From contig PERI01000001.1 of NCBI GenBank assembly GCA_002928515.1, positions 186,001 through 250,000 on the forward strand: DNA of 64,000 bases. Reading direction: 5' to 3'. The position numbers and the translations under genes are program-made. This document shows, piece after piece, positions 29,978 to 38,358 of this stretch; the first letter of the stretch is position 1; each line of letters starts with the position of its first letter. The DNA comes from Hyphomicrobium sp. Lineage in GTDB: Bacteria > Pseudomonadota > Alphaproteobacteria > Rhizobiales > Hyphomicrobiaceae. The notes beneath the pieces are model-generated. The model saw only the letters and a program-made list of their open reading frames with translations, did not search any database and was not told the origin of the DNA.

Positions 29978-30187
29978 ATGACGACAAACGATGGCCAGAA
30001 GGATCTGGCGGCAGGAGGAAATTTGAATACTCAGTTGCCGCGCGAATTGCAGGGCCAAATTGGTAAGAAGTTACGCGAACATTATTCTGAATTGATTCAT
30101 GAACCCGTTCCAGACCGGTTCGTTGAGCTATTGCAGAAGTTGAAGAATAAAGAAGCTAATAAGGAAGGAGGCGAGCGTGACCGTTAG
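29978..30187 (+). CDS. nepR: Anti-sigma factor NepR
   Basis: 69 residues. The family core IGKKLREHYSELIHEPVPDRF (residues about 28-48) then LLQKL is present, with flexible ends. NepR holds EcfG inactive until phosphorylated PhyR binds it. The 3' end overlaps ecfG by 11 bases, giving coupled synthesis of the anti-sigma and sigma factors. Confidence 0.94.
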   Translation: MTTNDGQKDLAAGGNLNTQLPRELQGQIGKKLREHYSELIHEPVPDRFVELLQKLKNKEANKEGGERDR

Positions 30188-30740
30188 TGGCGACGCCGAC
30201 CTTCAAACTTTGCTCATTCAATCTGTGCCGAATTTGCGCGCGTTCGCAAACTCGTTGTGCGGAGATCCTACGCGCGCAGACGATCTTGTGCAGGATACGC
30301 TCGTGAAAGCTTGGTCAAATTTGCCAAGTTTCGAGCAGGGCACGAACTTACGCGCTTGGCTGTTTACAATCCTGCGCAATACTTATTTCTCCAATTTGCG
30401 CAAACTCAAACGAGAAGTCGAAGATGCCGATGGTGTCTTTTCTGAGCGGCTGTCGGTCTTGCCGTCTCAGCAGAGCCATATGGATATGCTGGACTTCAAA
30501 GAGGCTTTCAAAGGTTTGACCGACGATCAGAAGGAAGTTCTTCTTTTGGTTGGTGCTGAAGGATTTTCCTACGAGGAGGCAGCCGAGATCACCGGTTGTG
30601 CTATCGGCACGGTGAAGAGCCGGGTCAATCGTGCGCGTGGTGCTTTAGCGAAGAGCTTGGCTCTGGATGAAGGCGAAGATCATGCATCCGCTGGAGAATT
30701 TGCTGCTGTTTTGCAAGTGGCGAGCGTTGCGAGGTCATGA
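30177..30740 (+). CDS. ecfG: General stress ECF sigma factor EcfG
   Basis: 187 residues with region 2 (GDPTRADDLVQDTLVKAW, about 28-45) and region 4 (LVGAEGFSYEEAAEITGCAIGTVKSRV-like, about 124-150) of an ECF15-type sigma factor. GTG 30177 is five bases after GGAGG and overlaps nepR. It should recognise GGAAC-16/17-CGTT promoters, of which this window carries at least nine exact examples. Confidence 0.95.
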   Translation: MTVSGDADLQTLLIQSVPNLRAFANSLCGDPTRADDLVQDTLVKAWSNLPSFEQGTNLRAWLFTILRNTYFSNLRKLKREVEDADGVFSERLSVLPSQQSHMDMLDFKEAFKGLTDDQKEVLLLVGAEGFSYEEAAEITGCAIGTVKSRVNRARGALAKSLALDEGEDHASAGEFAAVLQVASVARS

Positions 30741-30857: not shown

Positions 30858-31667
30858 ATGTCGATCGCTGAAACTATTGGACCGCATCTCCCCTACTTGC
30901 GTCGCTATGCGCGAGCCCTGACGGGTAGTCAGAATTCTGGCGATAATTACGTTGTCGCTGCTCTTGAAGCCCTTATTGAAGATGCGAGTTCGTTTGATAA
31001 GAGCTTGCCACCGCGCGTTGCGGTCTATCGGGTTTTTACGAAAGTTTGGAATTCTCTACCCATCAATCGCGTGGCTGACGATGGTGAAACACCAGACGCC
31101 AAGTCATCTTCCGAACGCAGACTAGAAGCGATTACCCCGGCTCCGAGACAGGCGTTTCTTCTCGTGTCGGTCGAAGGATTTACAACGGCAGAAGCCGCGC
31201 AAATTCTTGATATGCCGCCAGCATCCGTTACTGGCTTGTTGCAGCAGGCCGGTTCTGAAATTGCGCTTCAGTTGTCAGCTGACATTCTGATTATTGAAGA
31301 TGAGCCGTTGATTGCGATGGATCTCGAAGCTCTGGTGGTCGATATCGGTCATCGTGTGCAGGGCGTCGCGCGGACGCATAAGGAAGCTGTTGCGGCCGTT
31401 GCTAAGAAAGCGCCTTCTCTTGTGCTTGCTGATATTCATCTTGCAGACGGCAGCTCTGGATTGGAAGCCGTCAATGAAATACTACAATCCATTACCGTGC
31501 CAGTGATTTTCATCACGGCATTTCCAGAACGGTTGCTCACTGGGATGAAGCCGGAACCCGTGTTCTTGGTCTCTAAACCTTTCGAGCCGGCTATGGTAAA
31601 AGCCCTGATCAGCCAAGCGCTATTTTTCGATATGAAAGCGCAGCAAGCTCAACAATCTGCTGCGTAA
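30858..31667 (+). CDS. phyR: Anti-anti-sigma response regulator PhyR
   Basis: 269 residues: an EcfG-like sigma domain (1-135) and a C-terminal receiver (142-260). The receiver has EDE (147-149), phosphoacceptor Asp192 in LADIHL, Thr220 and Lys240. Upon phosphorylation PhyR mimics the sigma factor and sequesters NepR. It follows ecfG by 117 bases on the same strand. No exact EcfG promoter was found in this gap, so it may be read from upstream or from a housekeeping promoter. Confidence 0.95.
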   Translation: MSIAETIGPHLPYLRRYARALTGSQNSGDNYVVAALEALIEDASSFDKSLPPRVAVYRVFTKVWNSLPINRVADDGETPDAKSSSERRLEAITPAPRQAFLLVSVEGFTTAEAAQILDMPPASVTGLLQQAGSEIALQLSADILIIEDEPLIAMDLEALVVDIGHRVQGVARTHKEAVAAVAKKAPSLVLADIHLADGSSGLEAVNEILQSITVPVIFITAFPERLLTGMKPEPVFLVSKPFEPAMVKALISQALFFDMKAQQAQQSAA

Positions 31668-32714: not shown

Positions 32715-32792
32715 CTAGATGACGTTGAACACGTTCAACAGGATCAGCACTGGGATTGGAATACCGATCATCCAAAGCAAGATATTTCTCAT
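32715..32792 (-). CDS. 25-residue hydrophobic membrane peptide
   Basis: ATG 32792 to TAG 32715, with GAGGA seven bases before the ATG. It encodes a single hydrophobic helix with MIGIPIPVLILLNVF in its core. Small membrane peptides with an IGIPIP motif occur in other Hyphomicrobiales as far as I recall. A strong terminator directly downstream supports a real transcript. No exact EcfG promoter is adjacent; the sRNA terminator at 32884-32924 separates it from the promoter at 32990-33014. Confidence 0.65.
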   Translation of the reverse strand: MRNILLWMIGIPIPVLILLNVFNVI

Positions 32793-32883: not shown

Positions 32884-32924
32884 AAAAAAATGAGCCCGCG
32901 ACCGAGGGGGGCGGTCACGGGCTC
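32884..32924 (-). terminator. Intrinsic terminator of the small RNA
   Basis: GAGCCCGCGACCG (32892-32904) pairs with CGGTCACGGGCTC (32912-32924) with one mismatch. On the minus strand the stem is followed by ATTTTTTT. Confidence 0.9.
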
Positions 32925-32982
32925 TGATGAAACGAAGCGCGTCCACAAGGGAGGGCGGGGGGACGGTGGAGGCGCATTCGTG
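32884..32982 (-). ncRNA. Candidate GsrN-like general stress small RNA
   Basis: About 99 bases on the minus strand, with no open frame of note. An exact EcfG promoter (32990-33014) predicts a 5' end near 32982. The first stem pairs GCGCCTCCAC (32966-32975) with GTGGACGCGC (32937-32946), one mismatch, and exposes a 19-base C-rich loop (32947-32965) made of CCCCCC and CCCTCCC blocks. The second is a 13-base terminator stem (32892-32924) with loop CCCCCCT and a run of seven T (32884-32890). An EcfG-driven sRNA of about 100 bases with a C-rich 5' loop and its place in the stress locus match GsrN of Caulobacter, which pairs with G-rich sites in mRNA leaders. Ends are inferred. Confidence 0.75.
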
Positions 32983-32989
32983 AATAAGT

Positions 32990-33014
32990 AACGCTCAGCC
33001 GCGCTCATGGTTCC
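32990..33014 (-). promoter_or_regulatory. EcfG promoter of the small RNA
   Basis: On the minus strand GGAAC (33010-33014), 16 bases, CGTT (32990-32993): exact match. No protein gene begins within the next 190 bases, but a terminator lies 66-106 bases downstream. Confidence 0.87.
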
Positions 33015-33069: not shown

Positions 33070-33909
33070 TCAGATCAGGGGGCGCAATTGGCTGGCGTCG
33101 CTCTCATAACAGGCGAGTTCTTTTAATGCGGCTTCGTCAACCAGCTCGAAGACGCTATCTTTCCATTTGATCCATTTGCGAGCGTATAGCGCTTTCAGCG
33201 TCTTGTTTGTGTGTACGAGGGAAAGCCCCAAGGCATCGGCTAAGTGCTGTTGCGTAAATGGGAACAAGACTTTGTTGCCGTTTACCAAGCCAACGCTCGC
33301 TGCCTTATAGTAAAGATGCAATAGCACGAACGCCATGCGCTCCTGAGATGAGCGGCGCCCGACGGCTAAAAGCTGCTCATCCAGCATGCGCTCAGAACGC
33401 GAGGCAATCCATGTGAGGTCGTAGGCAAGACCGGGGAATTTTTCGTAGAGAGACCAAATTTTGTCGCGCGGAAAAACGCACAAGATTGTCTTGGTCAAAG
33501 TTTCAACCGAATGCTGCATTTCATTGAACATCGACGTCTGAAGGCCAAGGAAATCACCTGGCAGTGCGAAATTCATAATTTGGCGACGGCCATCCGGCAG
33601 CATTTTATATCTGAAGGCCCACCCTGATAGTACCGTATAGAGATGCGGACTGGAGTGCCCCTCCATGAGAAGGGTTGCACCCTCATCCGACACGAACTCA
33701 CCGGTTTTGAACCACTCGACGAATTCGACTTCATTGGGTTGGAAATCGCGAAAAACGTTGAGTGCTCGAAGTGGGCACTTCAAGCATTGCGTTTGCTTAG
33801 GCTGACGCCCATGGGCGCTTGGCGATGTTTTTTGCGACGTCTTAGACGCCTTGGCTCGTGGAGGCATACGGTGATCTAGCCATTTTGCAGGCTGACGTCG
33901 ATACGTCAT
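33070..33909 (-). CDS. Crp/Fnr-family regulator with partial iron-sulfur ligand set
   Basis: 279 residues: a cyclic-nucleotide-binding-like domain (about 60-180) and a C-terminal winged helix with QQHLADALGLSLVHTNKTLKAL as the HTH. The N-terminus has CLKC (Cys42, Cys45) and a later Cys144 in the place of the fourth Fnr cluster ligand; Asn51 stands where the third would be. So three of four Fnr cysteine positions are kept, and the recognition helix differs from Fnr. Probably a redox or oxygen-linked regulator, but not a standard Fnr. An exact EcfG promoter lies about 140 bases upstream. ATG 33867 is an alternative start. Confidence 0.82.
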   Translation of the reverse strand: MTYRRQPAKWLDHRMPPRAKASKTSQKTSPSAHGRQPKQTQCLKCPLRALNVFRDFQPNEVEFVEWFKTGEFVSDEGATLLMEGHSSPHLYTVLSGWAFRYKMLPDGRRQIMNFALPGDFLGLQTSMFNEMQHSVETLTKTILCVFPRDKIWSLYEKFPGLAYDLTWIASRSERMLDEQLLAVGRRSSQERMAFVLLHLYYKAASVGLVNGNKVLFPFTQQHLADALGLSLVHTNKTLKALYARKWIKWKDSVFELVDEAALKELACYESDASQLRPLI

Positions 33910-36249: not shown

Positions 36250-38358
36250 TCAATTCTTATTGACAGACAGTTGTCCTATATTTGCCATCGGTGCGGTTAA
36301 ATTCCAACGAACGCCGTCTGCGGCAAAATTTATTGTGGATGAAGCTTTGAGACCTTGAGCGACAAAACGCTCGATCACGGCCATGCCATACCCGCGAGGC
36401 GCGGTTTCTTGGCACGATGGACCGCCGACTTCTGTCCAAGACATCGAGAAATCGTCGTTCGGCTCCACTTTCCAAGTGAGTAGAATTTCGCCCGATGCCG
36501 TGGAAAGAGCACCGTGTGCGAGTGCATTCAATGTCAGCTCGGCAAACGCCATTCCTAGTGTTTGGGCAACTTGGGGATCAACAGCAATGTCAGGCCCTTC
36601 TATTTTGACGCGCTTGATGCCGTCGTGGGCGATGGCTTTGATTTCGGCCTTGGCCAGATCGCACAAATCGATATCGCGCCAGTCAGCAGCAACGATTAAA
36701 TCTTGAGAGGCCGCGAGGCCGGCGACACGCAAAGAAAAATTATGGACGTGGCTTTGCACATCGGTTGCGTCGCGGGCTGTCAAACGCGACATGGCAAGAA
36801 TGAGAGCCAGCATGTTTTTCGAGCGGTGCGAAATTTCACGCAATAATGCGCCGGTATGTTCGGCGTTTTCTTTTTGTGCTGTGATGTCGAAGTTGACGCC
36901 GACAACACGGCGTGGACGACCTTCCTCGTCCGGCACCATGGACCCTTTGCCAGCAAGCCAGCGCGTCGATCCGTCAGGACGATTGTAGCGAAATTCCAAG
37001 GAAAAAGCAGGATTTTCGGCTGATAGTTTCGATAGGGCATCGGTAATGAGCTGGCGATTTTCTTCGTGAACATGGGAGATGAATTCTTGTACGGATGGGG
37101 CGCGTTCACCGCGTGGCAATCCGGTCAAATCGAATTGAACGGGGTCCCATGTCATCGTGTCGGTTGCGCGATCCCATTCCCAAACGCCCATGCCGCCGGC
37201 ATCGAGCGCCATGCGTAGGCGGTAATCGCTTTCGGCGAGCTCAGATTTGCGACGCGCTAATTCCGCTGTCGTTTCGACCAGAACGTTATTCAGGTCGCGA
37301 ATTTCACTGATGCTTGTAGATAGGGGTAGATTGACTACGCCGGTTGCGAGCGCGCGCGCGTTGGCAGATAATTGTGAAACTGATTTTGAAAGTTGATTGG
37401 CCAATAACGATGTGACGCCGATGGCCAGCGTGCCGAGCGTCAGCGCAATGCCGATGAAGCGGTTCCAATCCCGGTTCATCTCTTGTTCGACAATTTCGAC
37501 AGGTGCATGCGTTGAGACACGCCAACCGGTACTTTTATTGTGCGTGTAAGCTTGCAGCAAAGGCGTACCGCGTAAGCCTTTGGCGCGAATAACGCCAGAA
37601 TTCCCAGTGTTTCTCGCAGATGCTGCGAGTACATCAGCACTTAGGGTTTGACCGAAGTAAAGTGCAAAATCCTTCGAGTGGGCAATGATGCGGTTGTTGC
37701 GATCGGCGATGGTTGAAATCCAAATATTTTCGCCGTCGTCGGTATCGACCGCTTGGCTCAGAAATGACGGTGGAATGCGGGCTTGCAATACCAGTGGCGT
37801 AGATTTTGAAACGTCTATTCGGATCCATGCGCTGATGCCTGCGACTTCACCCGTTTTCGGGAGATCGGTGAATTTTGCAGTATTGGACGCCAAGGCTGCA
37901 AAGGCAATTTGGTCGTCACCCCGCGTTGCTAGGTCAGCGGGTAAAGCTGCATTGGCTTTGCCGAGCGGAGAGAGCGTTTTATCCCTTATGACGACATCGA
38001 CACCGGTGCCTTCTAAACTCATGCGCGTTTGTTCGTAGAACGTCGCGTAGTCTTTGCGCGCAAGGGCAGGGGACGTTGCGAGGGCTTTCAGGGTTGCCAA
38101 TAAGCCTGTGACCACGTTGTCGGTAGCCAAAGCTAAAACATCTGCGCGTGCTTGGGCGTTGCGTTCGATTTTCTCTCGAGCGTTATCGATTTGGCGGGCG
38201 ACTAGCCAACCGCTTATCGTGACGGCAGGTACGAGAACAGCAAGCACCATGGCAATGAGGTGCCAGGAAATGGGGCATGGTTTTGGTGCCCACAAGTTGG
38301 GCGCTTCTGATGGTGCTTCACCGCCGCCAAATTTTCGATCGCCCTCCAAGCTGTTCAT
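36250..38358 (-). CDS. HWE sensor histidine kinase with dCache-like sensor, HAMP and PAS
   Basis: 702 residues: a membrane helix (about 32-54), a large periplasmic dCache-type sensor (55-300), a second helix (about 302-322), a HAMP-like linker, a PAS domain (about 378-500) with the PAC motif RRVVGVNFDIT, and an HWE kinase core. The phosphoacceptor His511 is in ISHRSKNML, the N-box has Asn611, and the family's W-x-E is SWTEVGGP (641-643). HWE kinases are known inputs of the PhyR pathway. It has its own exact EcfG promoter and a leader hairpin that covers its ribosome-binding site. Confidence 0.9.
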   Translation of the reverse strand: MNSLEGDRKFGGGEAPSEAPNLWAPKPCPISWHLIAMVLAVLVPAVTISGWLVARQIDNAREKIERNAQARADVLALATDNVVTGLLATLKALATSPALARKDYATFYEQTRMSLEGTGVDVVIRDKTLSPLGKANAALPADLATRGDDQIAFAALASNTAKFTDLPKTGEVAGISAWIRIDVSKSTPLVLQARIPPSFLSQAVDTDDGENIWISTIADRNNRIIAHSKDFALYFGQTLSADVLAASARNTGNSGVIRAKGLRGTPLLQAYTHNKSTGWRVSTHAPVEIVEQEMNRDWNRFIGIALTLGTLAIGVTSLLANQLSKSVSQLSANARALATGVVNLPLSTSISEIRDLNNVLVETTAELARRKSELAESDYRLRMALDAGGMGVWEWDRATDTMTWDPVQFDLTGLPRGERAPSVQEFISHVHEENRQLITDALSKLSAENPAFSLEFRYNRPDGSTRWLAGKGSMVPDEEGRPRRVVGVNFDITAQKENAEHTGALLREISHRSKNMLALILAMSRLTARDATDVQSHVHNFSLRVAGLAASQDLIVAADWRDIDLCDLAKAEIKAIAHDGIKRVKIEGPDIAVDPQVAQTLGMAFAELTLNALAHGALSTASGEILLTWKVEPNDDFSMSWTEVGGPSCQETAPRGYGMAVIERFVAQGLKASSTINFAADGVRWNLTAPMANIGQLSVNKN

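Follow-up and report, generated by a model that had tools for sequence, protein, structure and literature searches.

The minus strand of positions 32884-33014 most probably carries a stand-alone small RNA (sRNA) gene, which EcfG would transcribe under stress and whose product would pair in trans through C-rich loops. We regard it as a conserved EcfG-type sRNA gene because of its promoter footprint, its synteny, its covariation and its covariance-model score; the first three strongly support the first-pass annotation, which had placed here a hidden sRNA gene belonging to the general stress (EcfG) regulon. The window, i.e., the whole stretch of 64,000 nucleotides analysed here, belongs to a 2.92 Mb Hyphomicrobium genome (G000), which was studied together with 21 other genomes of the genus. 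Among named records, the nearest relatives of its EcfG come largely from Hyphomicrobium. The genes nepR, ecfG and phyR are followed by a PRC-barrel gene on the opposite strand, a frame that we take to be of the DUF1328 type and a 25-codon frame, after which come the sRNA candidate, a Crp-type regulator, and two histidine kinases with a response regulator (Table 1). The 25-codon frame (MRNILLWMIGIPIPVLILLNVFNVI, 32715-32792, minus strand) is hydrophobic and lies downstream of the sRNA; it is kept in two of the 20 other genus loci (L138 and L139), both with a GGAAC element upstream. The 5' end of the sRNA was placed by promoter spacing and its 3' end by the T run.

Table 1. Features of the sRNA locus in the window, and candidate RNAs in named Hyphomicrobium records
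Feature	Position	Strand	Basis or remark
nepR, anti-sigma factor	29978..30187	+	Context; PF18557
ecfG, general stress sigma factor	30177..30740	+	Context
phyR, anti-anti-sigma response regulator	30858..31667	+	Context; PF22029, PF22233, PF00072
crp-like regulator, upstream of the sRNA on the same strand	33070..33909	-	Present in 4 of 17 syntenic loci
EcfG promoter	32990..33014	-	-35 GGAAC 33010-33014, 16-bp spacer, -10 CGTT 32990-32993
Candidate small RNA gene, about 100 nt	32884..32984	-	Fold, synteny, covariation, covariance model
5' hairpin exposing the C-rich loop	32932..32981	-	Predicted fold; 9 of 11 helix pairs changed on both sides
19-nt C-rich loop CGUCCCCCCGCCCUCCCUU, proposed mRNA-pairing site	32947..32965	-	Predicted fold; C-run of 5 or more in all 17 loci
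Intrinsic terminator stem-loop, 13 bp	32892..32924	-	12 of 15 helix pairs changed on both sides
Second C-rich loop CCCCCCT, in the terminator	32905..32911	-	C-run of at least 4 there in 17 of 17 loci
Terminator U tract (seven T), possible Hfq 3'-end site	32884..32890	-	Sequence; Hfq gene in genome
RNA candidates in named Hyphomicrobium records	L097:9261-9370, L095:9182-9291, L100:620-728	-	EcfG site upstream
RNA candidates in named Hyphomicrobium records	L074:9215-9322, L081:9123-9232	-	EcfG site upstream

The promoter motif is exact, and no open reading frame of at least 60 amino acids in the ORF list of the window overlaps 32884-33014, as expected from the earlier claim of an exact EcfG promoter with no protein gene behind it. 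Exact GGAAC-N16/17-CGTT motifs occur at 10 sites in the window against 0.96 expected. Behind each of the other nine, an open frame of 45 codons or more begins no more than 260 bases on, a weak criterion, given that the sRNA promoter also has a 66-codon TTG frame about 215 bases on, beyond the terminator. GGAAC was found in all 17 syntenic loci, with CGTT in 15 and AGTT in two. Column identity across these loci reached 100% in the -35 and 97% in the -10 element; for the transcript it was 73%, for the spacer 47% and for the upstream flank 44%. By this alignment the promoter is a conserved footprint, with an unconserved spacer and upstream flank.

The window RNA has a predicted folding energy of -45.0 kcal/mol, against -22.4 (sd 2.9) in 200 shuffles (z -7.9). 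The terminator stem (32924-32892) starts 66 bases past the promoter and consists of 13 pairs, 10 of them G-C, closed by a 7-nt loop and followed by ATTTTTTT; the first-pass annotation had placed a 13-base stem with seven T about 70 bases on, and had described a 19-base C-rich loop and a terminator loop CCCCCCT, both of which appear in the predicted fold. Across the copies the C-runs are kept in both places, with drift in loop length and letters; in G015 and G017 the C-run is partly paired with G's in the predicted fold.

BLASTn of the gene against the 22 genus genomes gave the window as the only significant match (others E 0.08 or worse); the gene had been described as invisible to coding-based annotation, and it is indeed missed both by coding-gene annotation and by BLASTn within the genus. 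A close phyR is present in 17 of these genomes (100% identity for the window, 78-81% for the others), with only a distant one (56-58%) in the remaining five. When the same gap was compared in close relatives, as had been suggested for the loop and promoter, the arrangement was preserved: this gap, antisense to phyR, contains in each of the 16 close-phyR relatives the motif GGAAC-N16-(C/A)GTT along with a C-rich stretch and a C-run hairpin. Counting the window, all 17 close-phyR genomes carry the RNA. A combined scan for the promoter, an unpaired C5 run and a strong fold covered 445 kb in 21 genus loci including the window; 17 of these loci have a close phyR. It was positive in 15 loci with the exact motif and in 17 with NGTT, whereas 319 permuted decoy motifs gave at most one locus each (mean 0.003). 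The scan-negative loci L154-L157 are from genomes with a distant phyR only. This fold-based scan took the place of early terminator-based scans, which missed most relatives because, we believe, the terminator stem of the relatives contains a bulge. Separately, another C-rich candidate, distinct from this RNA, lies in L154 downstream of an EcfG site with a 17-bp spacer, and other C-rich hairpin RNA candidates stand behind EcfG-like sites near the general stress response (GSR) locus at L228:6564 (minus strand), L230:7486 (plus strand) and L229:4073-4272 (plus strand), in three genus genomes with a distant phyR only.

In an 18-row alignment (17 distinct), 21 of 26 pairs showed two-sided changes and 96.9% of cells were paired, figures that are somewhat flattering in that the structure guided the fitting of the alignment (A4) and shuffles ignore the relatedness of the sequences. 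On none of the five measures did any of 500 shuffles reach these values; pairing in slid structures was 34-51%. We also built a covariance model (R1) from 14 relatives, leaving out the window and the promoter. With filters off, R1 scored the window copy at 43.9 bits, the next-best site in the window reaching 14.1. It scored G015 low (29.4 bits) and missed the syntenic copy in G017, which was recovered at 42 bits by a further model (R3) trained without that copy. At E 0.1, R1 gave no match in any of the five genus genomes without a close phyR; R3 gave weak matches (E 0.024 and 0.096) elsewhere in two of them. Run with strict filters at E 0.001 on 297 genomes sampled from the order, R1 matched G000 and G004 and, weakly, G162. 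Matches of R1 were also found in another genus (G101 and G102; loci L178 and L180), directly downstream of GGAAC-N16-CGTT, the promoter being absent from the model.

Applied to 103 genomes of the family, R3 matched 47 at E <=0.1, where some chance matches are expected, and 32 at E <=0.001, of which 17 belong to the genus and 15 to six other genera. An exact EcfG site no more than 170 bases upstream accompanied nine of 20 R3 matches (two more were skipped; L178 and L180 belonged to the R3 training set), with decoys averaging 0.08 and reaching 2 at most. Among these nine, L234 is G017's own copy, the site at L173 is doubtful at 167 bases off, and five (L074, L081, L095, L097 and L100) lie in named Hyphomicrobium records, H. 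zavarzinii included. These five have the EcfG site 75-117 bases upstream and a C-rich, near-identical first loop, ACCCC(C)TCCCCGACCCTAGAGCAC; three carry a second hairpin with CTCCCTCCC. Outside the genus, 12 of the 28 family genomes with an R3 match were checked, and an EcfG site was found in two (L178 and L180); the other 10 (L235-L242, L179 and L181) show the plan with two C-loops but no exact EcfG site within range. L173 is a second copy in G017, a two-C-loop candidate without an EcfG promoter close upstream.

Such loops recall the anti-Shine-Dalgarno CCUCCUCCC sRNAs (type of ar14, RF02344, and SmelA075) found in Rhizobiales and Rhodobacter, whose proposed role is to block ribosome binding sites (PMC3927594). 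Kinship with these RNAs is possible but doubtful. The two groups share C-rich anti-Shine-Dalgarno hairpin loops, a link to stress and drifting stems, and the pattern of constant loops and diverged stems is the one described for that family (PMC3927594). The sequence CTCCCTCC is present in 12 of our 17 copies and the exact CCTCCTCCC in one, G015; moreover, L179, a relative without an EcfG promoter, matched ar14, though below threshold (30.3 bits against 58.8). However, the exact motif CCUCCUCCC occurs in only one of 17 copies, and ar14 gave no match in the window gap up to E 5, nor in the genus copies L158, L169 and L171. C-rich loops are likewise common to sX13 (RF02232) of Xanthomonas, a gammaproteobacterial RNA with G-rich targets that is not known to be under EcfG control; among the relatives only L173 gave a match to the sX13 model, weak and sub-threshold.

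The first-pass annotation had further assigned the RNA the architecture of GsrN (ccna_R0081 in Caulobacter), the SigT-driven sRNA of about 100 nt whose six-C 5' loop pairs with the katG leader and which is stabilised by Hfq (PMC5869019). This was only partly right: the promoter type (EcfG/SigT), the size, the exposed C-rich 5' loop and the intrinsic terminator are shared. GsrN is also processed to a 5' isoform. To obtain gsrN sequences, the GsrN loop was inferred from the target sites in Table 1 of PMC5869019 and searched in 385 genomes of the class, giving one match, which adjoins phyR. The DNA of this match found relatives in 70 of 119 genomes of the same family, taken to be Caulobacteraceae, and 27 of 30 gsrN-relative loci had an EcfG-type site upstream (relaxed pattern). 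All three gsrN relatives tested against Rfam RF01529 (CC3552) exceeded the gathering score, and a shared length of 106 nt suggests that RF01529 is GsrN. The recovered gsrN loci are L196/L197 with their relatives L198-L226. The EcfG protein was uninformative as a Caulobacteraceae marker across the class, and the Caulobacterales loci L054 and L060 showed no gsrN by promoter scan or by the GsrN model described below.

In gsrN relatives the 5' domain that carries the C-run encloses a second, nested hairpin, and a C-run of four in the terminator loop is found in only two of 21, whereas the Hyphomicrobium RNA has two separate C-rich loops. The conserved GsrN loop CCCCCCGACUUG and the sequence CCCCCCGACTTG are each present in 20 of 21 gsrN relatives and in none of the 17 Hyphomicrobium copies. 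The search with a GsrN alignment that had been suggested as a check, and its converse, found no homology. A model built from 21 gsrN relatives (R2) recovered all nine held-out gsrN copies, each scoring at least 100.6 bits. Searched against the sRNA sites of 19 Hyphomicrobiaceae sources, it listed a single match (E <=10), L180, at 10.8 bits (E 4), and unfiltered on the window gap it reached 9.4 bits at best, over the terminator. Conversely, R1 on 30 gsrN loci reached 13.2 bits at best, at the 3' end of gsrN in L222. Rfam gave no match in the whole window at gathering scores, and none in the window gap up to E 5, RF01529 included. That the gene is a sequence-diverged GsrN orthologue is therefore improbable and at present unsupported, even though promoter type, size, C-rich 5' loop and locus type are all shared: gsrN typically lies near GSR genes in Caulobacteraceae, C. 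crescentus itself being an exception (PMC5869019), and the gsrN relative L196 also adjoins phyR. With no detectable homology in sequence or structure, the Hyphomicrobium RNA is not a recognisable member of the GsrN family, although it may work like GsrN. GsrN-like RNAs proposed near the GSR loci of Rhizobium, Sinorhizobium, Brucella, Rhodopseudomonas and Bradyrhizobium share the EcfG site, the proximity to GSR genes and, for Rhizobiaceae, a C-rich loop; these proposals rest on proximity, promoter and partly transcriptome data, and were compared with our RNA by description alone (PMC5869019).

Two further readings are rejected in view of the RNA's own promoter, its distribution across loci and the lack of conserved frames. 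It is very improbable that the segment merely belongs to the crp-like gene, as its 3' end or terminator, or serves as leader to the 25-codon frame: the strand is the same, the crp stop precedes the promoter by 55 bases and some 100 bases separate the terminator from the 25-codon frame, but the RNA has its own conserved promoter, and it is kept both where a crp homologue is undetected (13 of 17 syntenic loci) and where the 25-codon frame is missing (this is found in only three of 21 genus loci). Least credible of all is a micro-protein, since the 20-codon ATG frame of the window RNA is not kept in relatives, the frame behind a GTG found at the same place near the 5' end of 12 of 17 copies closes after 18-20 codons in four and stays open past the RNA end in eight, loop lengths vary by 1-2 nt and the helices covary.

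For the sRNA gene that we favour, C-runs conserved in two places without conservation of the exact letters fit pairing with G-rich or Shine-Dalgarno sequences, and the C-rich loops probably pair with such mRNAs. Using each genome's own loop, pairing with the leaders of 11 neighbouring genes, three of them tested in the window only, was no better than with shuffled leaders (group mean z -0.75 to +1.23). The DUF1328 leader, a twelfth, gave an average z of about -0.6 over 13 loci, with single values to -2.9. Nor were individual candidates supported. The histidine kinase gene at 36250-38358 tops the 61 window ORFs (-29.1) but has a mean z of 0.02 over 17 loci; nepR has a mean z of -0.75 across loci; and the leader of katG, the target of GsrN, pairs at -10.8 kcal/mol compared with a mean of -13.3 for the 61 window ORFs. 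No G-run longer than two lies within 200 bases upstream of katG in G000. This katG (L184, G000:C2) has, by eye, a signal-peptide-like N-terminus, and its leader holds AAAGGAGGAAAC and no G-tract.

The promoter, structure, conservation, covariation and synteny described above are read directly from genome sequences. For dependence on EcfG, Hfq binding, pairing in trans and the identity of the targets, we infer from the biology of PhyR-NepR-EcfG and of GsrN-type RNAs. Under stress, PhyR would sequester NepR and so free EcfG, which would transcribe the sRNA from the promoter at 32990-33014 until the 13-bp terminator ends transcription. The RNA would then expose two C-rich single-stranded loops, one in the 5' hairpin and one in the terminator, most likely pairing in trans with G-rich mRNA leaders or Shine-Dalgarno regions. 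Hfq, whose gene is present in the genome, would probably sit at the U tail. The outcome would be a post-transcriptional arm for the general stress response.

Searches on GsrN, EcfG sRNAs and Hyphomicrobium sRNA, PhyR or GSR in an open-access library, which covers few subscription papers, turned up no paper on this RNA. A conserved sRNA family without an Rfam match joins the alphaproteobacterial general stress response, together with models with which to search for it, and falls outside the Caulobacteraceae and Rhizobiaceae cases described in PMC5869019. It becomes testable whether the PhyR-NepR-EcfG response includes a C-loop sRNA as a standard component, which may be convergent. We tentatively raise the possibility that alphaproteobacterial GSR loci have repeatedly recruited unrelated C-loop sRNAs, with a radiation in Hyphomicrobiaceae that has both EcfG-driven members and members with other promoters. 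If so, the C-loop would be a convergent output module of the GSR, its plan being an EcfG promoter plus exposed C-tracts. Hyphomicrobiaceae would then hold one two-C-loop radiation, whose EcfG-driven members would be the window gene, those of the g25 genomes and the H. zavarzinii-type loci, and whose members with other promoters would wire the same target code to different stress inputs.
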